Positions 151-27,840 of a DNA stretch of 27,917 bases are shown one piece after another (the stretch's first letter is position 1; each line of letters opens with the position of its first letter). The notes below the pieces were generated by a model. That model was given only the letters and a program-made list of their open reading frames with translations, was not told the origin of the DNA and did no database searches. The stretch comes from a virus. The position numbers and the translations under genes are program-made. Where the stretch lies: positions 1 to 27,917 of IMG/VR virus record IMGVR_UViG_3300027861_000157. One strand, written 5' to 3'.

Positions 151-207
151 ACTCTCTACCTCTGTAAAATACTTGTAACTCTCGTTCTTCATCTTACGTA
201 AATTCAT
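1..207 (-). CDS. DUF4116-like repeat protein (5' part, runs off left edge)
   Basis: The reading frame opens at ATG 207-205, behind a strong Shine-Dalgarno (AAGGAGGA, about 213-221), and stays open to the window edge, giving 69 codons of a longer gene. After a short N-terminus (MNLRKMKNESYKYFTEVES) it consists of 22-residue repeats of the type LEAVKQDGDALQYVKDQTEA-IC. Two full copies and the start of a third are visible. This matches the DUF4116 repeat seen in phage and bacterial proteins; its function is unknown. The DNA repeat is 66 bp (units starting near 1, 67 and 133) and nearly identical between copies, so unit number may vary by slippage or recombination. It has its own promoter and leader hairpin, unlike the tail genes upstream. 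An open frame on the opposite strand is only a by-product of the repeat. Confidence 0.8.
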   Translation of the reverse strand, partial: MNLRKMKNESYKYFTEVESLEAVKQDGDALQYVKDQTEAICLEAVKQDGYALQYVKDQTEAICLESVKQ

Positions 208-221
208 TTCTGTTCCTCCTT

Positions 222-276
222 AAAAAGAGCAGACCGAACACTTGGAAGGAGGGCGGGAGGGTGTGTCCGATCTGCT
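222..276 (-). terminator. Intrinsic terminator / attenuator hairpin in leader of the repeat gene
   Basis: In the minus-strand RNA a 14-bp stem (276-263 with 241-228, including two G-U pairs) closes a C-rich 21-nt loop and is followed by C and five U (226-222). It lies between the promoter at 309-337 and the start codon at 207, so it could attenuate the repeat gene as well as end the tail transcript. The loop contains CCTCCTT (252-246), exactly complementary to the Shine-Dalgarno AAGGAGG (221-215). Confidence 0.75.
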
Positions 277-308
277 AAAGTTTGTTTTAAATACTCCATC
301 CACGAGTC

Positions 309-337
309 ATCATACACGCCAAAAGGGTGTATGTCAA
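309..337 (-). promoter_or_regulatory. Sigma70-type promoter for the DUF4116-like gene, with overlapping inverted repeat
   Basis: On the minus strand, -35 TTGACA (337-332), a 17-bp spacer and -10 TATGAT (314-309) are close to consensus. Transcription would start near 302. An inverted repeat ATACAC...GTGTAT lies between and overlaps the two boxes, so it could be an operator. Confidence 0.8.
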
Positions 338-9265: not shown

Positions 9266-9984
9266 TATGCCGTTTCCTCAATTTCATCCGTCCATGTATT
9301 CGGTGCCGTGTTCTTAAACTCTGTTGCGCTACCGTATTGGTAAGTCCAACTGATAGTAAAACGCTGCTCTCCTGACTCCTGATACCGTGGGCTTTTTGTT
9401 ATCCGTGGATTCTCTTCCATCTCCTGCCCCGGAAATAGCTTGCCCGGTGGTACAGGGTAGTTTGTTTTCGCAGTTGCGCTTCCGCTCTGTGTCGCTCTGT
9501 AGATTGTCTTGGCATTCGTCTGGTATTTCTTCGGAGTGCTTGAAATCGTCTCCATGAAAATATGCCTAGCACCACCACCGTAAAACGTAAGCGTCTCTTG
9601 AAAGCTTACAAGCTCATCAGACTTGACAATATCAGCGTAACCCGTTACCGTTAATTCTATAGTGCGTTGGTTTGCGTATTCCGCGCCTGTGCCTTTTGGG
9701 TATCCGATGGTTTGCGTATGACAATTCGTTACTTCATGTGCGCTCTTAGTTGTTCCGTTGTTGTTGTATAGCGTCAAGGTTCCTTCGGGTACAGATAAGG
9801 CGGTTACAAGAGCATCAATTCCGGTAGTAATGTCAGCCTGTGAATTAGCCTGAATTACCGTGGTGATTTGCCATGTCTGCTCTGCCTTGTCGGGTCTGCC
9901 GCGTGAATCAAATACAGTGCTTGTGCTAATCTGCATCGCGGTTGTAGATTCGTTGAATGAGTATGATTCGTATTTTAACTTCAT
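9265..9984 (-). CDS. Tail protein following the tape measure (Dit-like position), 239 aa
   Basis: Begins MKLKYESYSFNESTTAMQIS, the same first 40 or so residues as the chimeric gene upstream, but continues into its own body (TTVIQANSQADITTGIDALV...). It has a beta-rich composition and ends DEIEETA. In siphovirus gene order the gene after the tape measure usually encodes a distal-tail or minor tail protein, which is the likely role. The start codon is immediately preceded by the end of the chimeric gene, and its 5' end is part of a 296-bp direct repeat. Confidence 0.65.
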   Translation of the reverse strand: MKLKYESYSFNESTTAMQISTSTVFDSRGRPDKAEQTWQITTVIQANSQADITTGIDALVTALSVPEGTLTLYNNNGTTKSAHEVTNCHTQTIGYPKGTGAEYANQRTIELTVTGYADIVKSDELVSFQETLTFYGGGARHIFMETISSTPKKYQTNAKTIYRATQSGSATAKTNYPVPPGKLFPGQEMEENPRITKSPRYQESGEQRFTISWTYQYGSATEFKNTAPNTWTDEIEETA

Positions 9985-10158
9985 CTATCCTACCCTCTGT
10001 AGTCTTGCCTGATTCTTCTTTTCAAGTTCGCCTTTAATCCCCTGCTCTATAGCATCGGCTGCACCATCAGCGGCTTGATTCATTTGATCGCCAAGATTAA
10101 CACCCCTAGCGCGTTGACGGGCAATGCCAGCACTAAACGCTTCCGTTCCTCTATCTTC
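9863..10158 (-). repeat. 296-bp direct repeat, copy 1
   Basis: Nearly identical to 10448-10743 at a constant offset of 585 bp. It spans the last residues of the chimeric gene, the TAG stop and the first 40 codons of the 239-aa gene. The differences I see are few: three near 9889-9898 (T/C, C/G, A/C) and single ones near 10004 and in the ctatcttc/ctgtcttc end. Confidence 0.9.
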
Positions 10159-10569
10159 ACCCATTGAAGAAAGTACAGACTCAGGCGAAATCCCGGTAAC
10201 TGCGGAAAACACATCACCCGACGTGCCAAGTACGGACCCTATTCCCTTTCCAAGAGAATAGAATGCGCCCGGTATCTTCAACGCCCACTCAGCGATGGTT
10301 TTTGCGTACCCAGCAGCACTCTTTAATCCCTCAACAAACTCCCTGTTGTTTTTTACAAATGTTTCAACGCCAGCGTTAACACCTTCGAATGCTTTCCCGA
10401 ACTCTTCAACGACTTTAGTTGCTGTCGGCAAAAACTTAGTGCCGATAGTGATTTGCCATGTCTGCTCTGTCTTGTCCGGTCTGACGCGTGAATCAAATAC
10501 AGTGCTTGTGCTAATCTGCATCGCGGTTGTAGATTCGTTGAATGAGTATGATTCGTATTTTAACTTCAT
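9985..10569 (-). CDS. Chimeric gene: start of the next tail gene fused to a second tape-measure C-terminus, 194 aa
   Basis: Residues 1-40 match the N-terminus of the downstream 239-aa tail protein, with VRPDKTEQ in place of GRPDKAEQ. From residue 42 (IGTKFLPTATKVVEEFGK) the sequence is homologous to the tape-measure C-terminus. The middle (about 80 residues) has diverged, while the last 56 residues (from EDRGTEAFSAG to LQRVG) are identical to the tape measure. The frame is intact and keeps the duplicated context of the 239-aa gene's start. This looks like a tandem duplication of the tape-measure/tail-gene junction whose copies now carry different inner segments. It could be a functional alternative C-terminus, a non-functional relic, or an assembly join of strain variants. 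Confidence 0.75.
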   Translation of the reverse strand: MKLKYESYSFNESTTAMQISTSTVFDSRVRPDKTEQTWQITIGTKFLPTATKVVEEFGKAFEGVNAGVETFVKNNREFVEGLKSAAGYAKTIAEWALKIPGAFYSLGKGIGSVLGTSGDVFSAVTGISPESVLSSMGEDRGTEAFSAGIARQRARGVNLGDQMNQAADGAADAIEQGIKGELEKKNQARLQRVG

Positions 10570-10743
10570 CTATCCTACCCTCTGTAGTCGTGCCTGATTC
10601 TTCTTTTCAAGTTCGCCTTTAATCCCCTGCTCTATAGCATCGGCTGCACCATCAGCGGCTTGATTCATTTGATCGCCAAGATTAACACCCCTAGCGCGTT
10701 GACGGGCAATGCCAGCACTAAACGCTTCCGTTCCTCTGTCTTC
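10448..10743 (-). repeat. 296-bp direct repeat, copy 2
   Basis: Partner of 9863-10158. It spans the tape-measure 3' end, its stop and the first 40 codons of the chimeric gene. A second homologous pair of about 56 bp with two mismatches (10392-10447 and 10956-11011, offset 564) bounds the other side of the duplicated unit. Between the two pairs the inner segments are diverged and differ by 21 bp. Confidence 0.9.
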
Positions 10744-16137: not shown

Positions 16138-16742
16138 TAGCTCTTTTCGGATTTCTCCAACGCGCCAACGGATTTTAGGTCTAGGTATCGCTCCTCGATT
16201 GCGTCCGCTTGAAGATTCTCCAACGCCTCTTTCTTGATTGCTTCGCCAGAATTCGGTACTTTGCTTGCAGCTACAATCAGTGTATTCACAAGCTCTCTCT
16301 CTTCGGATAGATTCTCGTTTGCCTCTTGCATCCTGTCGATTGATTTGTCCACTATCCCCTCTGCGAATTCTTTGTCTTCCTTCTCTTCGTTCCGTTGCTT
16401 GCGAAAGAATCTGGCAGCACCTCCCGCTAATGCAAGTAGTGCTAACAGTCCAGCGTTTGCCGTGTCTGCATACTCGCCCATAAAAGGAGTAGCTATCTTA
16501 ACCGCCGCTTGTGCTGCTGTTGCTCCTTGGCTGACCTGTGTTGCAATCGCCTCGCCCTTGGTAGCCGTCGCATCGCTAATGATTTCAATGTCTGCAACGT
16601 CCTCAATAACCGTCACAACATCACTTGCCGCGCTTGCTACAGGTGCCGCACCGTCTGCCGTCCTTTTAGAAAGCATATCAAAATTGAAGTCACCGCAACC
16701 ACCAAAACAAACCAATGCCGCGATTAGAATAAACTTCTTCAT
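16137..16742 (-). CDS. Phage-encoded lipoprotein with internal membrane segment, 201 aa
   Basis: The N-terminus MKKFILIAALVCFGGCGDFN is a lipoprotein signal peptide with lipobox FGGC (Cys16). Residues about 95-113 (ANAGLLALLALAGGAARFF) are a hydrophobic segment followed by RKQRNEEKEDK, and then a long charged helical region to the C-terminus. The start overlaps the stop of the gp10/gpG-like gene. Its site, inside the connector and tail-terminator gene block, is unusual. Similar phage proteins with a lipobox plus one late hydrophobic segment are of unknown function. Superinfection exclusion, envelope penetration or holin-like activity are all possible. Confidence 0.7.
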   Translation of the reverse strand: MKKFILIAALVCFGGCGDFNFDMLSKRTADGAAPVASAASDVVTVIEDVADIEIISDATATKGEAIATQVSQGATAAQAAVKIATPFMGEYADTANAGLLALLALAGGAARFFRKQRNEEKEDKEFAEGIVDKSIDRMQEANENLSEERELVNTLIVAASKVPNSGEAIKKEALENLQADAIEERYLDLKSVGALEKSEKS

Positions 16743-17410
16743 CCTGTCCTCCCTCTTAATCTCATCTTCTCGTAGTAATCAGCGTATGCCGATTCTGTAA
16801 ATCTTTCGTCTTCTTTTGTGATACCTAAGATTGTACGCGCAGGGACTCTCTTCCCTTTGTACGTTCCACCGTTTTGTAGCTTCTCAATCCACTGAGTACC
16901 GGGTGTATATCCGTAGCTAAATGAGGTTTTGCTTGTTCGTGTTGATCGACCGGGAGTGCTTAGAAACTTCCATATCTGACGCTTACGACCAATATATCCG
17001 CGCTTTTCCGCTTCACCCTGTCCTCTTGCTGTTGCTAGTACAAGCGGTTTTCTATCAGGCTTCGAAGGTGGTCCATATTTCAATCGATACCTACGCGCTG
17101 CCTTCTTGCCTTTCGCCGTCTTAATCGGTTGCCTTAAAGCAGAACCGCCATTATTAACTGACTTAGGGCGTTTCACTCCGTCACCCTTCGAAAGAATCAT
17201 AGGGACATCATCGCCGATTTTCGGGAATGGTTTTGAGTATCCAGCCGCCCAAGGAACACCATTAACATCTACATGCTTCTTCATTCTGTCTTTGGCTTTG
17301 TTCCGATAATACTTTCCGAGCTTATTATGAACAGGACTCCATCCTCGAGAGCCGGGACTCTGCATGTTTTTCAGATACTTATCCAACTGAGGCAATGTCA
17401 TTACAGTCAT
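16739..17410 (-). CDS. Virion morphogenesis / tail completion protein (HK97 gp10 or Mu gpG-like), 223 aa
   Basis: Strongly basic protein with the order typical of this family: an N-terminal helix (LPQLDKYLKNMQ), then NGVPWAAGYSKPFPKIGDD, a long basic middle, and the conserved C-terminal YKGKRVPARTILGITKED followed by a final helix. The motif vPAR-x-iLGi-x-x-eD is characteristic of phage virion morphogenesis proteins that work at the head-tail junction. It overlaps both neighbouring genes by 4 bp. At 223 residues it is somewhat long, because of an inserted basic segment of KGKKAARRYRLKYGPPSKPD type. Confidence 0.75.
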   Translation of the reverse strand: MTVMTLPQLDKYLKNMQSPGSRGWSPVHNKLGKYYRNKAKDRMKKHVDVNGVPWAAGYSKPFPKIGDDVPMILSKGDGVKRPKSVNNGGSALRQPIKTAKGKKAARRYRLKYGPPSKPDRKPLVLATARGQGEAEKRGYIGRKRQIWKFLSTPGRSTRTSKTSFSYGYTPGTQWIEKLQNGGTYKGKRVPARTILGITKEDERFTESAYADYYEKMRLRGRTG

Positions 17411-17745
17411 ACAATCTCCGTCACAGGTATCATGTATTCACCTGTGTCAATCTTGTATTCGTAATCTTCCATGTATTTATAAACAATACCCGCCGCTGTT
17501 ATCGTGTCTTTCGCTTCCGGAGTAGCTTGAACCTCACTAAGAATCAAATCCGTCTTCTTAATATAGAAAACCTTCATAACATCACGCAAAAACACACCGT
17601 TTACATCTTGCGTCTCGACTTCCACCTCTGTACGTATAGCTGTAACCTCTACAGAATCAACACCCCGCGTATACGTGACTGTATCGCCGAAGACAGATTG
17701 CCAAGCTGGTAGTGTGGCTTTCGCCGCTACTTCAAATACGCTCAA
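17407..17745 (-). CDS. Head completion / head-tail joining protein, 112 aa
   Basis: Small beta-rich protein (MSVFEVAAKATLPAWQSVFG, TVTYTRGVDSVEVTAIRTEV, VFYIKKTDLIL, IVYKYMEDYEYKIDTGEYMI). Size, composition and position between head genes and the gp10-like gene match phage head-closure or stopper proteins such as lambda gpFII and SPP1 gp16 types. It overlaps the FkbM gene upstream and the gp10-like gene downstream by 4 bp each, so the inserted modification genes are translationally coupled to the connector genes. Confidence 0.65.
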   Translation of the reverse strand: MSVFEVAAKATLPAWQSVFGDTVTYTRGVDSVEVTAIRTEVEVETQDVNGVFLRDVMKVFYIKKTDLILSEVQATPEAKDTITAAGIVYKYMEDYEYKIDTGEYMIPVTEIV

Positions 17746-18290
17746 TGTGTGGCTACCTCAATCTCTATGTCGTATCCGTCCAGTATAGCCATGACCTCTT
17801 CATGTGGCATGGTCTGATCGAACTTATCACCGTGTAGCTCAATATACATCTTGTCAATTAACTTCAACGCGCCGTCTTTGTGCATTTTCTTGATTACTTC
17901 GTATTCCGCGCCTTCAATATCCATCTTGAGAAAAACGTAGTCAGTCTTAGATAGATGATGTAAGCACCAATCGGAGAAATCGAAACAAGGCACATCTACA
18001 GGGATTGAATAATCCAAGTCACCTGTACATTTGTTCAGTAGTACTGTCGCGCTCTGACTGCACGGCTTTTTAGGGTTCATGTAGAAATGAATCTCTCCAT
18101 CATACACCCACGCCGCATCTTCTATAATCTCGATATTCTCAAAGCGATTATTCGTCTTACGCCACATCGGGTCTTGCAGACAATTCAAGCATGGTTCAAT
18201 CGCATAACAAATATCGACCTCATTATGAACAGCCAAATATTCGTAGACCGTCTTCCCGATATGTGCGCCGCAATCTATGTATACGTTCAT
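17742..18290 (-). CDS. FkbM-family SAM-dependent methyltransferase, 182 aa
   Basis: Motif I is YIDCGAHIGKTV (residues 4-15), with the following acidic EP (residues 32-33) for ribose binding. The FkbM signature VFLKMDIEGAEYEVIKKM (residues about 118-135) is present, followed by KMYIELH. These are the conserved parts of class I O-methyltransferases of the FkbM family, which often methylate sugars. The gene overlaps the glycosyltransferase by an ATGA and is followed by another 4-bp overlap. It is short for the family but all core motifs are present. A substrate in the glycan added by the neighbouring enzyme is inferred. Confidence 0.85.
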   Translation of the reverse strand: MNVYIDCGAHIGKTVYEYLAVHNEVDICYAIEPCLNCLQDPMWRKTNNRFENIEIIEDAAWVYDGEIHFYMNPKKPCSQSATVLLNKCTGDLDYSIPVDVPCFDFSDWCLHHLSKTDYVFLKMDIEGAEYEVIKKMHKDGALKLIDKMYIELHGDKFDQTMPHEEVMAILDGYDIEIEVATH

Positions 18291-19006
18291 GCTGGATATG
18301 TCCCATCGTTATGAATAAGGTCTTTATAGCCTCGCATATGCTGAAAGATATTACACTCTTTGTCAATGTCAACTCTAGGATACTCATCTGGAAAAGCAGC
18401 TAACTTAACGCTTGTCTGCTCTGTGCCTCTATATCTTGTAGCAAATATAACATCACGCTCTACAGTAGCTACCTTCTCAAAGAACTCAAGAACGTACTCG
18501 CGCTTGCCTATCCAACATCCTGCGTTCAGGTGCTGATACTTAGTTTTAAACTTAGCCTCAAATACATCGCAGTCATGGAGTGGCTTGCATCTTTTGGGCC
18601 ATGTGCCGTTAGATGCATTAAAAAGCAATTCACAATCGAAATCCAAGAACCGCTTAACAATGTGCGAAGGATGTTCAGTTAGCACAACATCGAAAGCGTC
18701 AAGACCGATAATGTATTCCGCTGTACTCTGACGGGCGAAATCAATGGTCATAAACACCTTGTCGATATTACTCCAACTCTCTTGATCCTTCTTTAATACG
18801 TTTATTTCTGCGCCTAGAGAATCAAGGCTCTTCTCTACGACTGATTTATTGTGATCTGTACTCCAAGTAATCACATCGTAACTAGGAACTTCTACAGCTT
18901 CGGATACAAACTTTGTGCGTACCAGTTCACCCCATAGCGGCAGCCGTCTGGTCTTGCCTGGAGCGTGATACACAATAGGCTCTGAATTTGTACGGACGTT
19001 CTTCAT
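18287..19006 (-). CDS. PLOD/LH3-like glycosyltransferase, 239 aa
   Basis: Start taken at ATG 19006 (MKNVRTNSEP); a GTG three codons upstream is also in frame. The second half matches the glycosyltransferase domain of procollagen-lysine (PLOD/LH3) enzymes. YIIGLDAFDVVL holds the acidic metal/UDP-binding motif (D103, D106). ELLFNASNGTWP, YQHLNAGCWIGKREYV and PRVDIDKECNIFQ (residues about 210-222) follow in family order. It should transfer a sugar from a nucleotide donor. The protein ends at DGTYPA, where many relatives continue into an H-x-NG motif, so the C-terminus may be shortened. Coupling to an FkbM methyltransferase and adjacency to the capsid gene suggest virion glycosylation; that is inference. 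Confidence 0.8.
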   Translation of the reverse strand: MKNVRTNSEPIVYHAPGKTRRLPLWGELVRTKFVSEAVEVPSYDVITWSTDHNKSVVEKSLDSLGAEINVLKKDQESWSNIDKVFMTIDFARQSTAEYIIGLDAFDVVLTEHPSHIVKRFLDFDCELLFNASNGTWPKRCKPLHDCDVFEAKFKTKYQHLNAGCWIGKREYVLEFFEKVATVERDVIFATRYRGTEQTSVKLAAFPDEYPRVDIDKECNIFQHMRGYKDLIHNDGTYPA

Positions 19007-19013
19007 AAGATGC

Positions 19014-19037
19014 ACCCCCCACCCGAAAGCGGGGGGT
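19014..19037 (-). terminator. Strong GC hairpin after the capsid gene, overlapping the glycosyltransferase ribosome site
   Basis: A 9-bp stem (arms 19014-19020 and 19031-19037, extended by a G-U and a C-G pair in the minus-strand RNA) closes a 6-nt or shorter loop. There is no U-tract, so it may be a processing or RNA-stability element rather than a full terminator. Its 3' arm is a G-run that is also the only Shine-Dalgarno-like sequence for the next gene. Confidence 0.6.
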
Positions 19038-21565: not shown

Positions 21566-23033
21566 CTTCTTCTTCCTCTACTGGTTCTTCTTTTTTTGGC
21601 TCATCCGCATTTGTCATAGCAGCGGCTTGCGTCTTACCTATTTCCGTAGCGGCGAATTCATGCCACGATACCTTTTCGCCAGTTGCTTCCTCTACTTCTT
21701 GCGCGGCTTTAATCGCACGAATCATATCCGCCTTAGCTTCTGCTGTTTGATCGTCTGGGTCAATGTCACGGGCCTTCAATGCCTTCGTGTGGGTCGTGAG
21801 ATTTCTGTCTAGCATCAGACCTACAGCTTTAGCCTCTTTCTCAGGGTCAACCCACGGGAACGGTGGCGTAATCCACTCATGCTTAAGATACGCTTTATCA
21901 TTCGGGATAAGACCCTTACGCATCCACTCACCGACTTTCCACTTGTAAACTCTTGTGTGGAATTGACGGATAAGTAGTCGCTGCCATCCCTCAAACACTA
22001 AATCAGCCTGAATCAGCGAAGCCCTTGCGCTTGAATAGTTTGTCTGACTCCAATCCAAAAGAGCAAGCTCTAACGGAATACCAAGCGGGTTAGCCAATAG
22101 CCGGATATACATTCTGATTGATTCGGGGAAATTGCTTGCAGGGCGGTCTTGCTGAATGCCCTTAATCTCTTCGCCTTCTTCACCCCAAAACATAGTACCT
22201 TGATCTACGTCATTGATTCGAGTAGTCACATCGCCAGAAGTATCTGAATCACCTTGAGGGTCTTCTGTGCTGTTTTCACTACCGCCTTCTTTACGGGTGA
22301 TAGATATTGCGAACCTTGCCAGAAGTTGCCACGCGATAGCCTCGGAATCCAAGATATCATTGATTCTGTGTAGGTTAGGGAATGATGACACAAGAGCGGG
22401 GATACCACGGGTAGCGGATGAGCGTTTCATAAGATTAGCAACGAAAATACAGTCTCTAGCGTTAATCTGATCGTAGGTGCCACTTGAATACGTGTCGCTC
22501 TTAGTCTCTACCCAGTACCGAAGTGGCTTGCCGATTCGCGACTTTTCGACTCCCTGCTCCACGTTCTTTTCGCTGAACGGGCTAGAGATTCTTTCCGATT
22601 CGATTAACTGTAGCTGACCTTTTGAGCGTACCTTGTTTGCTAGAATATCGCCAGCTACGATAGTGTCTCGTAAGATAATCGCTTCAACCTCACGCCATGT
22701 ATGAACCCCCATGACTTCGGGGTACATAGCAAAATCCTTCCAAAGCTCAGTCTCAATTAGCGTGTTGACTTCTTTGGATGGCGTTTGCGCGTTAAGCGTG
22801 AATCCCTTTGCGCCTAATATATTATCTACAGCGCGGTTGATTACGGATTCATAGATGGGGTGATTTCTGTCATACGACCGCGATTGGTCTACAAGCTCTT
22901 CGCGGTCATCACGCATGAAGTAATCAGCCGTTCCGGACTGGTAGGATAAACCGTCGCGCCGATTTGACTTAATGGCGTTAAAGCCATTAGCGAAACGCTT
23001 TGTAAGTCCGTCTTTATTGTACTTTAACTGCAC
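21558..23033 (-). CDS. Portal protein, lambda gpB family, 491 aa
   Basis: Recognisable parts of the lambda-type portal family: DQSRSYDRNHPIYESVINRAVDNILGAKG-type N-terminal region (residues about 48-76), EAIILRDTIVAGDILANKV, LQLIESERISSP, an ARDCIFVANL strand, RGIPALVSSFPNLHRINDIL, and the NPLGIPLELALLDWSQTNYSSARASLIQA segment (residues about 325-355). It forms the twelve-subunit DNA entry ring at one capsid vertex. The start overlaps the gpW-like gene by 10 bp. The C-terminus is Glu-rich (EEPVEEEEDE). Confidence 0.9.
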   Translation of the reverse strand: MQLKYNKDGLTKRFANGFNAIKSNRRDGLSYQSGTADYFMRDDREELVDQSRSYDRNHPIYESVINRAVDNILGAKGFTLNAQTPSKEVNTLIETELWKDFAMYPEVMGVHTWREVEAIILRDTIVAGDILANKVRSKGQLQLIESERISSPFSEKNVEQGVEKSRIGKPLRYWVETKSDTYSSGTYDQINARDCIFVANLMKRSSATRGIPALVSSFPNLHRINDILDSEAIAWQLLARFAISITRKEGGSENSTEDPQGDSDTSGDVTTRINDVDQGTMFWGEEGEEIKGIQQDRPASNFPESIRMYIRLLANPLGIPLELALLDWSQTNYSSARASLIQADLVFEGWQRLLIRQFHTRVYKWKVGEWMRKGLIPNDKAYLKHEWITPPFPWVDPEKEAKAVGLMLDRNLTTHTKALKARDIDPDDQTAEAKADMIRAIKAAQEVEEATGEKVSWHEFAATEIGKTQAAAMTNADEPKKEEPVEEEEDE

Positions 23034-23236
23034 TTAGGGATTCCCCGTGTGAATGAGTTGTTTGAAGCCTTAGACAGTAAGCCGGAATACATTCTCCGCG
23101 CATCGATTAAATCTTTCATAGTCTGAAATGTGATAGATTTACCATCTACAGAAATGGATTGCGCCCCACCACCCGCATACATCGCAAGCACAGCGGCATC
23201 AATCGCATCAATAATCGCCTGATAGTTTGTTGCCAT
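23024..23236 (-). CDS. gpW-like head-tail joining protein, 70 aa
   Basis: Short protein MATNYQAIIDAIDAAVLAMY followed by AGGGAQSISVDGKSITFQTM and a final helix. Size, helix-hairpin-helix pattern and location between the terminase and the portal gene match lambda W and related small phage proteins. It would attach to the portal complex after packaging. It is the first gene after the promoter-RNA-terminator region. Family assignment is from pattern and position. Confidence 0.65.
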   Translation of the reverse strand: MATNYQAIIDAIDAAVLAMYAGGGAQSISVDGKSITFQTMKDLIDARRMYSGLLSKASNNSFTRGIPKCS

Positions 23237-23253
23237 GTAATCTCCAAGGACTA

Positions 23254-23293
23254 AAAGAAAACGCCACTCAGGTATTCAGCCCTGAATGGCGTT
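23254..23293 (-). terminator. Intrinsic terminator upstream of the gpW-like gene
   Basis: Minus-strand RNA: 13-bp stem (arms 23281-23293 and 23260-23272, one G-U pair), 8-nt loop, then UUCUUUU. The wobble pair is an A-C mismatch in the other orientation, favouring the minus strand. Confidence 0.75.
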
Positions 23294-23354
23294 CTCTCCG
23301 AAGTCTGGTAGAAGGGGGATCAATCCCAGCTATTCAGCCCGAAAACTTAGTTTT

Positions 23355-23405
23355 AAAAAAAGACGGCGGTAACGATCCTATCTTTAATCTTGCGTGAGAA
23401 CCGCC
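23355..23405 (-). terminator. Intrinsic terminator ending the structured RNA
   Basis: Minus-strand RNA: GGCGGU (23405-23400) pairs with ACCGCC (23370-23365) across a 29-nt loop, followed by GUC and seven U (to 23355). The long loop makes it less certain than the second terminator 60 bp further on. Confidence 0.6.
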
Positions 23406-23547
23406 TAACTACATAAACGCTTTCGCGTCGAGCAAGGGATACTATCCCAAGTGGGGTTACAAAAACACCGGGAATGATGATCGGACTACTTATTTCGTCT
23501 GCGGCGTTTCATGCCTTCGCATCTATCACCCCCGGCAGGAGGTACTT
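23355..23547 (-). ncRNA. Structured phage RNA of about 190 nt with its own promoter and terminator
   Basis: Transcription from the promoter at 23554-23581 would start near 23547. About 10 nt later a 13-bp stem begins (arms 23525-23537 and 23466-23478; four G-U pairs in the minus strand that would be A-C mismatches in the plus strand). It is followed by a hairpin GGGAU-AGU-AUCCC (23448-23436), a GNRA tetraloop hairpin ACGC-GAAA-GCGU (23428-23417) and the terminator. No protein ORF of note lies inside. It matches no RNA family I know (it is not tmRNA or tRNA). It could be a small regulatory RNA or a cis-acting leader of the head operon. Confidence 0.6.
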
Positions 23548-23553
23548 ACTATA

Positions 23554-23581
23554 AGTGTACTCACTTTTTAGCGTTTGTCAA
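23554..23581 (-). promoter_or_regulatory. Sigma70-type promoter for the structured RNA / head operon
   Basis: Minus strand -35 TTGACA (23581-23576), 16-bp spacer, -10 TACACT (23559-23554). A TATAGT just downstream is too far from the -35 box to pair with it. Confidence 0.75.
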
Positions 23582-23610
23582 TACAGTGTATGCTATGGGT
23601 GCTAACGTAA

Positions 23611-23874
23611 TCAAATTATCTTAATCGTATCGTCTACTGCGTTCTTTGTTCGCCGTCCACATTGCTCACACTCGCAGTATTGAGTCTTTGTGCGCTTTGG
23701 TCTTAGACATTCAGGATAACGCTTATCTACATCCGTGATTGTGTTCTTTACAGCCATAACACCGCCACACTCTTTACACTCTAACCCACTGTGACGCTTG
23801 CGCGGTTCCTCTTTCTTCGCTACCTTTTTCGCCACCTTCTTTGTTGTCTTCTTTGCTGTCTTCTTCTTAGCCAT
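23611..23874 (-). CDS. Lysine-rich zinc-ribbon protein, 87 aa
   Basis: Starts in a TAATG overlap with the terminase stop. Residues 1-29 are Lys/Ala-rich (AKKKTAKKTTKKVAKKVAKK), like histone H1 tails, followed by a zinc-ribbon pattern. That pattern is CKECGG (about residues 33-38), a Cys in YPECLRP, and CECEQCGRR (about residues 67-75). It recalls Ogr/Com-type phage zinc proteins. A nucleic-acid-binding role, perhaps in packaging or late gene control, is plausible but inferred. It is the last gene before the 374-bp non-coding stretch. Confidence 0.65.
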   Translation of the reverse strand: MAKKKTAKKTTKKVAKKVAKKEEPRKRHSGLECKECGGVMAVKNTITDVDKRYPECLRPKRTKTQYCECEQCGRRTKNAVDDTIKII

Positions 23875-26592: not shown

Positions 26593-26719
26593 TCCCCCTC
26601 CTTCGGTGGCTTAGGCGCGTACCAACTTTTAACGCAAGCCAACCCAAAGTCAATACCGCAGCATGACTTGTCTTCTCGATTTTATCAACGCATTCCTTCG
26701 CCTCTTTACTTACATTCAT
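26585..26719 (-). CDS. 44-aa ORF coupled to the radical SAM gene
   Basis: ATG 26719 overlaps the TGA of the radical SAM gene, and its ribosome site (GGAGGAATGAGAT) lies within that gene's last codons. The product starts MNVSKEAKECVDKIEKTSHA and continues AVLTLGWLALKVGTRLSHRR to end RGNE. It has a short hydrophobic helix and a basic tail. It overlaps the next gene by 8 bp. Unknown function. Confidence 0.5.
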   Translation of the reverse strand: MNVSKEAKECVDKIEKTSHAAVLTLGWLALKVGTRLSHRRRGNE

Positions 26720-27555
26720 ATCTCATTCCTCCCGTTATAATCGCACTTGAAATCCATGCAATACTTACTGCAAATCGGATCGTCATATGATGAGTGTGTA
26801 CTATACCACTCGTCCCTTTCATCCATCATTTCAGAACCAAACTCCCCAATAGGATCACCTCCCTCGCGTATATATACAGCACACGGGTAATGATGAATAC
26901 CTTTAATAGAAACGTCATCAAGAGCAAGAAAACATTTGTCTGATTTCAATGTGCCGCGCATCCCCAGCCCCTTAGAAAACCTTTTTACGCGATACGACAT
27001 AATCTCATGTTCCGGCATATCAATTAAACCATCAATTACGGATGACTCGCTTTGGCTAATTGTTCCGATCTTAATATCAGACACACCCAGATCAGAAATA
27101 AATTTCAGCATCTCATTACTGCTATCGACTGTTCCTATCTGAACGTCGGCACCGATTCCGACTAAAAACTCAATGACACTAATCACGTATGCATTTTTAT
27201 CATGGAGAGATATAGCAAAAGACCTACACCCAGCTTTAAAAATTTCCTCATACAGACCAATATCCGCCGAACCATTTGTAGACATCCTGACAGTCATTCT
27301 ATTCGCAGCACTTACAATATCAACTATGTCATCCCGAACAGTAGGCTCTCCACCTGTAATATGGTAGAACTTACACCCCCTAGACTCAAGGTATTTTATA
27401 ACATCAAGTATAAATGAGAGCGGCTGATCGTCTGAACTATCTACCGAATTACAAAACGAGCAGTTAAAATTGCACTTACTGGTTACGAGGTGCTCGCAAT
27501 AATATATACCAAGGTGACCGTCTCTATCCTTAGTCATTCCATGAAACCCACCCAT
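26716..27555 (-). CDS. Radical SAM protein, 279 aa
   Basis: Residues 28-35 CNFNCSFC give the radical SAM CxxxCxxC motif for a [4Fe-4S] cluster. HITGGEP (residues 65-71) is the SAM-binding GGE motif, and STNG (92-95) and an AISLHDK strand follow as expected. The C-terminus has a further cysteine group CSKYCMDFKC (residues 262-271) and an isolated PCAVYIREGG, suggesting a SPASM/twitch-like auxiliary cluster site. It is probably an oxygen-sensitive enzyme acting on a protein, peptide or nucleotide; QueE is less likely because its N-terminal signature is missing. The gene sits upstream of the terminase in the same operon. Confidence 0.85.
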   Translation of the reverse strand: MGGFHGMTKDRDGHLGIYYCEHLVTSKCNFNCSFCNSVDSSDDQPLSFILDVIKYLESRGCKFYHITGGEPTVRDDIVDIVSAANRMTVRMSTNGSADIGLYEEIFKAGCRSFAISLHDKNAYVISVIEFLVGIGADVQIGTVDSSNEMLKFISDLGVSDIKIGTISQSESSVIDGLIDMPEHEIMSYRVKRFSKGLGMRGTLKSDKCFLALDDVSIKGIHHYPCAVYIREGGDPIGEFGSEMMDERDEWYSTHSSYDDPICSKYCMDFKCDYNGRNEI

Positions 27556-27840
27556 ATCTCATTCCTCCTATACTAGCCGCCTATATGATCAATCTCTTCA
27601 TCACACGGATTTCTCGGAGCGCGACCCACAAATTCACAACCATCATAGCACACCGGGAAATACACGTATATCTCGCTCCATGCAGTAAACGGTTTACCGT
27701 TCGCAGAGCCAAATCCATCGTCAAATGGTCTGTCAAGTTCAATCTCATCCAGAGTGCAACTTATGATAACGTCATCGCCTGCACTCTCAGCAATCAAATT
27801 ACGCCATGTAGTCAAATCATTCATATCTCATTCCTCCTAT
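26717..27840 (-). repeat. Identical ribosome-site leader at three genes
   Basis: The plus-strand string catatctcattcctcctat occurs at 27822-27840 and 27553-27571, and its first 16 bases occur at 26717-26732. Each is the start codon plus leader of a gene (27824, 27555 and 26719). The third copy lies inside the coding end of the radical SAM gene. Confidence 0.85.
27573..27824 (-). CDS. Hypothetical 83-aa protein, first gene of the operon
   Basis: Starts MNDLTTWRNLIAESAGDDVI and has DEIELDRPFDDGFGSANGKP followed by FTAWSEIYVYFPVCYDGCE and a final PRNPCDEEIDHIGG. The pattern suggests a small folded domain of the kind common in phage accessory genes, not one I can assign. It has the same 19-nt start leader as the radical SAM gene and is directly behind a strong promoter. 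Confidence 0.65.
   Translation of the reverse strand: MNDLTTWRNLIAESAGDDVIISCTLDEIELDRPFDDGFGSANGKPFTAWSEIYVYFPVCYDGCEFVGRAPRNPCDEEIDHIGG

Follow-up and report, generated by a model that had tools for sequence, protein, structure and literature searches.

A candidate conditional leader RNA ahead of the head-tail operon of a tailed phage

Why does a tailed phage carry a promoter, structured RNA and terminators, without any protein, directly in front of its head operon? The locus that raises this question lies in a virus record of 27,917 bases, called the window here, which covers part of the genome of a tailed phage. Its recognised genes all lie on the minus strand, in the order radical-SAM protein, TerL, small zinc-ribbon-like protein, gpW-like adaptor, portal, scaffold-like protein, major head protein (MCP) and tail genes including the tape measure. 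The TerL is of the GpA type (PF20454) and the portal belongs to the lambda family (PF05136). The portal of the best cultured phages is only about 25% identical to that of the window. The region at 23237-23610 had been described from the sequence alone as a protein-free stretch of 374 bp; this is correct, and a hidden protein is excluded, as no open frame runs across it. A blastn comparison of the region with phage and plasmid collections gave no match, a Legionella piece appearing at E 0.3.

The insert and its one relative

Viral and genome scans by motif or by the portal, MCP and TerL proteins identified a sole true relative, L002 (L004 is the same), which is one contig of 5,515 bases whose portal and MCP are 80% and 88% identical to those of the window. 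On reading the loci, L003, L005, L006, L012 and L013 proved to be chance matches to the motif, and L007 was rejected as a relative carrying the cassette, being a distant phage in which the insert is absent. The order of genes in L002 is that of the window, with the zinc-ribbon gene followed by the cassette, gpW and portal. Its zinc-ribbon protein weakly resembles the Ogr/Delta late activators (E 0.011, below the cut-off), a possible kinship that we treat as a lead only. The L002 portal frame is interrupted (L002:1217-1242) and has about 35-40 codons fewer than that of the window. In four distant phages of the same portal family (L007, L008, L009 and L010) the TerL gene abuts the gpW or portal gene where the window has its insert, so that the present lineage has either gained the element or retained it.

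Several other features of the window were noted. A strong promoter, TTGACA-17-TAGAAT (27874-27846, minus strand), heads the operon of the radical-SAM and TerL genes, and its short leader has no terminator. Gene starts at 27824, 27555 and 26716 (minus strand) share a near-identical 20-nt block of Shine-Dalgarno (SD) sequence and start codon, GGAGGAATGAGATATGAATG. Genes for accessory enzymes (2OG-Fe oxygenase-like, methyltransferase-like and radical SAM) lie among or beside the structural genes, at 16739-19015 and 26716-27555 (minus strand), and a 296-nt direct repeat, 98% identical between 9863-10158 and 10448-10743, lies where the tape-measure gene meets the gene next to it. Between the MCP gene and the next gene, a hairpin is conserved (19051-18990, minus strand; L002:4937-4985), with the form ACCCCCCGC-UUUC-GGGUGGGGGGU in the window and GCCCCCUGCC...GGGUGGGGGGU in L002. 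It sits between the SD sequence GGAGAU and the probable ATG, and may bring this distant SD near the start codon.

The features of the locus, in minus-strand order, are as follows.

23611-23874, minus strand: gene for an 87-aa Lys-rich zinc-ribbon-like protein, upstream of the cassette
23554-23581, minus strand: sigma-70-type promoter TTGACA-16-TACACT, with a predicted start at about 23547-23546
23459-23546, minus strand: E1, an 88-nt three-way-junction RNA with 5' leader AGUACCUCCU, closing stem P1, hairpins P2 and P3, and U-tract GUGUUUUUGU; same predicted fold in the window and L002
23529-23544, minus strand: alternative early hairpin, CCUCC (23542-23538) with GGGGG (23533-23529) and loop UGCC, a prediction from prefix folding only
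23525-23536, minus strand: P1 5' arm GCCGGGGGUGAU, from fold and alignment
23484-23499, minus strand: P3 hairpin GAC-GAAAUAAGUA-GUC, nearly invariant in the alignment
23467-23478, minus strand: P1 3' arm AUCAUUCCCGGU, followed by the U-tract, from fold and alignment
23350-23458, minus strand: variable middle of 109 nt with a GAAA tetraloop hairpin and a weak seven-U terminator, 41/101 identical to L002
23299-23349, minus strand: first half of E3, with UAAGUUUUCGGGCUGA and a branched hairpin; 45/51 positions shared with L002 (P 4e-6 given the four-fold-site rate)
23253-23298, minus strand: T2, an intrinsic terminator with an 18-19-bp stem and UUUUCUUUU at its 3' end; 0/1000 shuffles as good
23239-23254, minus strand: stretch UUAGUCCUUGGAGAUU with the gpW Shine-Dalgarno; predicted pairing partner AGUUUUCGGGCUGA (within 23349-23334), 14 pairs in both phages
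23024-23236, minus strand: gpW-like head-tail adaptor gene (PHROG 2545, E 8e-5), first gene of the head operon

A promoter and a three-way-junction RNA

The sequence-only reading had placed a TTGACA promoter on the minus strand, where it is indeed found (TTGACA at 23581-23576, 16 nt, and TACACT at 23559-23554). L002 has TTGACA-16-TATGAT at the same place, giving a shared consensus of TTGACA-16-TAYRMT; the hexamers and the spacer length are kept, and spacer identity is only 7/16. No other promoter-like site with at least 9/12 matches was found on the minus strand from about 23420 to 19000. Transcripts of the head genes must therefore start at 23547 or upstream and cross T2.

An RNA of about 190 nt had been proposed to follow this promoter. 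The proposed unit was delimited wrongly, because shuffled sequence folds just as well as these 193 nt (z 0.01, with 93/200 shuffles as good); an energy at the shuffled mean is by itself no sign of selection, and the conserved unit is about 88 nt long. When the relative is added, two parts are better than chance, 23546-23459 (E1) and 23349-23237 (E3). As a yardstick of conservation, four-fold degenerate sites in four genes are 47-65% identical between the window and L002, or 0.58 when pooled. Four blocks exceed this background, over the 5' end of the RNA with the first arm of the stem (18/18), around P3 (18/19), at the second stem arm and U-tract (13/13) and before the last terminator (45/51). 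By this comparison, E1 and E3 are conserved far above the four-fold sites, and the middle is not. The middle (23458-23350) folds no better than shuffles and is unrelated in L002. Two structures that had been proposed there are present without being conserved, the part that holds both being replaced in L002: a GNRA hairpin with the loop GAAA (23429-23417) and a terminator with seven U (23405-23355), which is weak because its 6-bp stem has a 29-nt loop. A tRNA reading of the L002 middle, which has a T-arm-like GGTGGTTCGAATCTACC, was ruled out by ARAGORN and Rfam, by which no tRNA or tmRNA was found in the window or L002.

E1 begins at about +1, and its GC-rich closing stem runs into GUGUUUUUGU, a terminator-like arrangement that we term T1. 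Predicted independently in the window and L002, the fold has the same shape, with P1, P2, P3 and the U-tract right behind P1. A first stem about 10 nt downstream of the likely start point had been noticed previously and is real, although it has 12 pairs (GCCGGGGGUGAU with AUCAUUCCCGGU, 23536-23525 with 23478-23467), of which three rather than four are G-U, plus 3 + 2 more pairs across two bulges. Eight P1 pairs are aligned between the phages, and the three that vary all change between G-C and G-U with pairing kept; a ninth pair, present in the individual folds, is flipped between the two phages, U-A against A-U. With one relative, the search for covariation in this stem yields pair-preserving changes, but most pairs are invariant. 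The single-sequence fold energy of E1 is not unusual in either phage (z -1.44 and -0.69). By alifold, the minus strand of E1 gives z -2.66, with 4/1000 column shuffles as good, and the opposite strand z 0.04, with 487/1000. This difference and the pair-preserving changes in P1 support the earlier claim of strand-specific selection on an RNA.

It is highly improbable, in our judgement, that the locus provides ordinary insulation, with a head-gene promoter, a leaky damping terminator and no switch, and that E1 is conserved for something other than an RNA, for example as a packaging site or a binding site on the DNA. Two points favour such a reading, namely that leaky terminators are common inside phage operons and that only two sequences of the cassette are known, but the confinement of pair-preserving changes to one strand argues against it.

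Energies from prefix folding predict that E1 changes shape as it is made. In both phages, the early hairpin CCUCC-UGCC-GGGGG is predicted up to about 70-75 nt, and P1 replaces it at about 79 nt, directly before the U-tract. The first 10 nt of E1 are invariant between the window and L002 and unpaired in the final fold. Its pairing with the translation starts in the window is somewhat better for this 5' seed than for shuffled versions (6/200).

These features bring in the main rival to the reading that we prefer, namely that the insert between terL and gpW is an RNA moron, a self-contained cassette of promoter, RNA and terminator. E1 would then be a free small RNA, about 88 nt long and with the U-tract at its 3' end, whose single-stranded 5' end AGUACCUCCU, complementary to SD sequences, would repress phage or host mRNAs in trans, and T2 would merely insulate gpW. 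The promoter and terminator-like U-tract that closely flank E1, its invariant and unpaired first 10 nt, and the abutting TerL and gpW genes of the family all agree with this proposal, as does a size similar to that of lambda PreS and other small RNAs of phages (PMC12197685). Like morons and phage small RNAs, the cassette has its own promoter and terminator and is inserted between genes that abut in relatives; it differs from a moron in having no protein, and in that the conserved element behind it is tied to the gpW ribosome-binding site. The effect of the seed is generic for any anti-SD sequence, and the early hairpin can hide it. A trans-acting small RNA also leaves unexplained the conservation of E3 (45/51 before T2), its pairing with the gpW SD and the position of T2 between the promoter and the head genes. 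We consider this rival possible but unlikely.

Terminator T2, the gpW ribosome-binding site and a second operon head

E3 (23349-23237, minus strand) comprises a branched hairpin, the terminator T2 with its stem of 18-19 bp, and a predicted helix that covers the gpW SD. The second terminator that had been reported before the gpW-like gene (23298-23253) is strong and ranks first among the compact terminator-like hairpins in the whole window, consisting of a stable GC-rich hairpin followed by a U-tract as expected of an intrinsic terminator. Its stem differs from that of L002 by one compensatory A-U/U-A change and one G-C/G-U change, and T2 contributes most of the alifold score of the whole of E3 (z -7.6). 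Upstream of T2, AGUUUUCGGGCUGA is able to form 14 bp with UUAG(U/C)CCUUGGAGAUU, a stretch containing the gpW SD, in both phages. The energy of this duplex is reached by 36/5000 and 43/5000 shuffles in the two phages, so that the significance per sequence is only about 0.7-0.9%; some 200 further 17-mers in the window pair equally well.

Neither this pairing nor the following leader, at the other end of the window, figured in the sequence-only reading.

207-337, minus strand: second operon head, with TTGACA-17-TATGAT (337-309), a 13-bp terminator hairpin (275-229), a U-tract, SD AAGGAGG (221-215) and ATG (207), in the same order as the gpW leader

The terminator loop of this second leader, CCUCCUU, is complementary to the SD AAGGAGG just behind the U-tract (duplex -11.5 kcal/mol). 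A 66-nt tandem repeat follows the leader at the left end of the record (1-152). Normally, the order of such elements is terminator, promoter and gene. The order promoter, terminator, SD and gene of the gpW leader recurs once in the window, at 337-207, and this repetition is in our view the best argument that these are leaders controlling read-through rather than stray terminators.

Comparison with known systems and the proposed mechanism

That no known RNA is recognisable here by sequence had been claimed before and agrees with our Rfam search, in which covariance models including phage pRNA, riboswitches, small RNAs and ribozymes gave no family above gathering in the window and only chance-level hits up to E 5. 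A hammerhead reading of GACGAAA...GUC was rejected, since the core is incomplete on inspection and Rfam is negative.

In layout, the closest system is the lambda late promoter pR', where a 6S leader and the terminator tR' precede the late operon, whose genes need Q-controlled read-through. Here too, and likewise in L002, a terminator (T2, 23298-23253) lies between the promoter (23581-23554) and the first gene (gpW, 23236). The cassette differs in its location between terL and gpW, in having its own junction RNA and SD-masking pairing, and in a promoter spacer that is not conserved; its identity of only 7/16 between the two phages speaks against a shared Q-binding element within it. No Q-type antiterminator gene was found among the proteins of the window searched in Pfam or PHROGs, the record being a 27.9-kb fragment.

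The closest RNA idea is put of phage HK022; the cassette is assigned neither to this class nor to the lambda arrangement. HK022 putL, of about 70 nt, lies just downstream of its promoter (PMC9378689). Factor-independent antitermination by put goes through the beta' zinc-binding domain. Like put, E1 is an RNA structure with which a phage transcript begins and which has terminators downstream. However, put consists of two adjacent stems, and E1 is a three-way junction closed by a long stem that runs into a U-tract. A local alignment of E1 with putL was not above shuffles, and membership was rejected on this ground and on the different fold. It seems very unlikely to us that E1 acts like put, as a cis-acting antitermination RNA that binds its own polymerase, which then passes T2 and later terminators. 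In its favour, the transcript opens with a structured RNA, a strong terminator follows before the genes and no protein factor is recognisable, but E1 ends in a U-tract as terminators do, which an antiterminator does not need. Attenuators and SD-sequestering leaders also resemble the cassette in their alternative hairpins, a terminator directly before the SD and an SD held in a stem; in the cassette, no leader peptide is seen and there is no known ligand-binding family (Rfam negative).

We give about an even chance to the reading in which the head-tail operon has its promoter, together with a conditional leader, in this cassette. A conserved promoter, RNA folds on the minus strand, T2 between promoter and gpW, and a second operon head built alike are observed. 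Polymerase would start at about 23547 and make E1 first, and P1 would close only as its last bases emerge, just before the U-tract, so that polymerase could stop there. Termination at T1 would yield a short RNA of about 88 nt, and termination at the strong T2, directly before gpW, one of about 290 nt. Expression of the head genes would require polymerase to pass T2, and pairing with AGUUUUCGGGCUGA would leave the gpW SD of the read-through RNA partly masked. Late in infection, read-through would be raised by a switch, for which an antitermination factor of the phage or E1 itself is the most likely candidate. Real stops at T1 and T2, the relevance of SD masking and the identity of the switch are what we infer.

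The conservation of the promoter with a diverged spacer, the alifold scores of E1 and E3 (z -2.66 and -7.6), stem pairs kept through compensatory change, the position of T2 before the gpW SD and the tie of E3 to gpW through SD pairing all argue for a conditional leader. Against it, most pairs never vary between the two sequences, the fold energy of E1 alone is ordinary, the SD pairing reaches a significance of only about 0.7-0.9% in each sequence, and the window has no recognisable antitermination gene. Moreover, a polymerase modified upstream might ignore T2, in which case the leader need not regulate anything, and the promoter could serve a free small RNA only. A bolder version, which we regard as quite unlikely, is that E1 is a new phage RNA whose switch from the early 5' hairpin to the three-way-junction terminator stem decides whether polymerase enters the head operon, with a second gate masking the gpW ribosome-binding site.

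The phage lineage that carries the cassette has no close cultured member in the collections searched. Very few phages are known to gate their late genes by RNA elements that need no dedicated protein, and this conserved, Rfam-negative leader between terL and gpW would be a compact test case for control of read-through and translation in one cassette.
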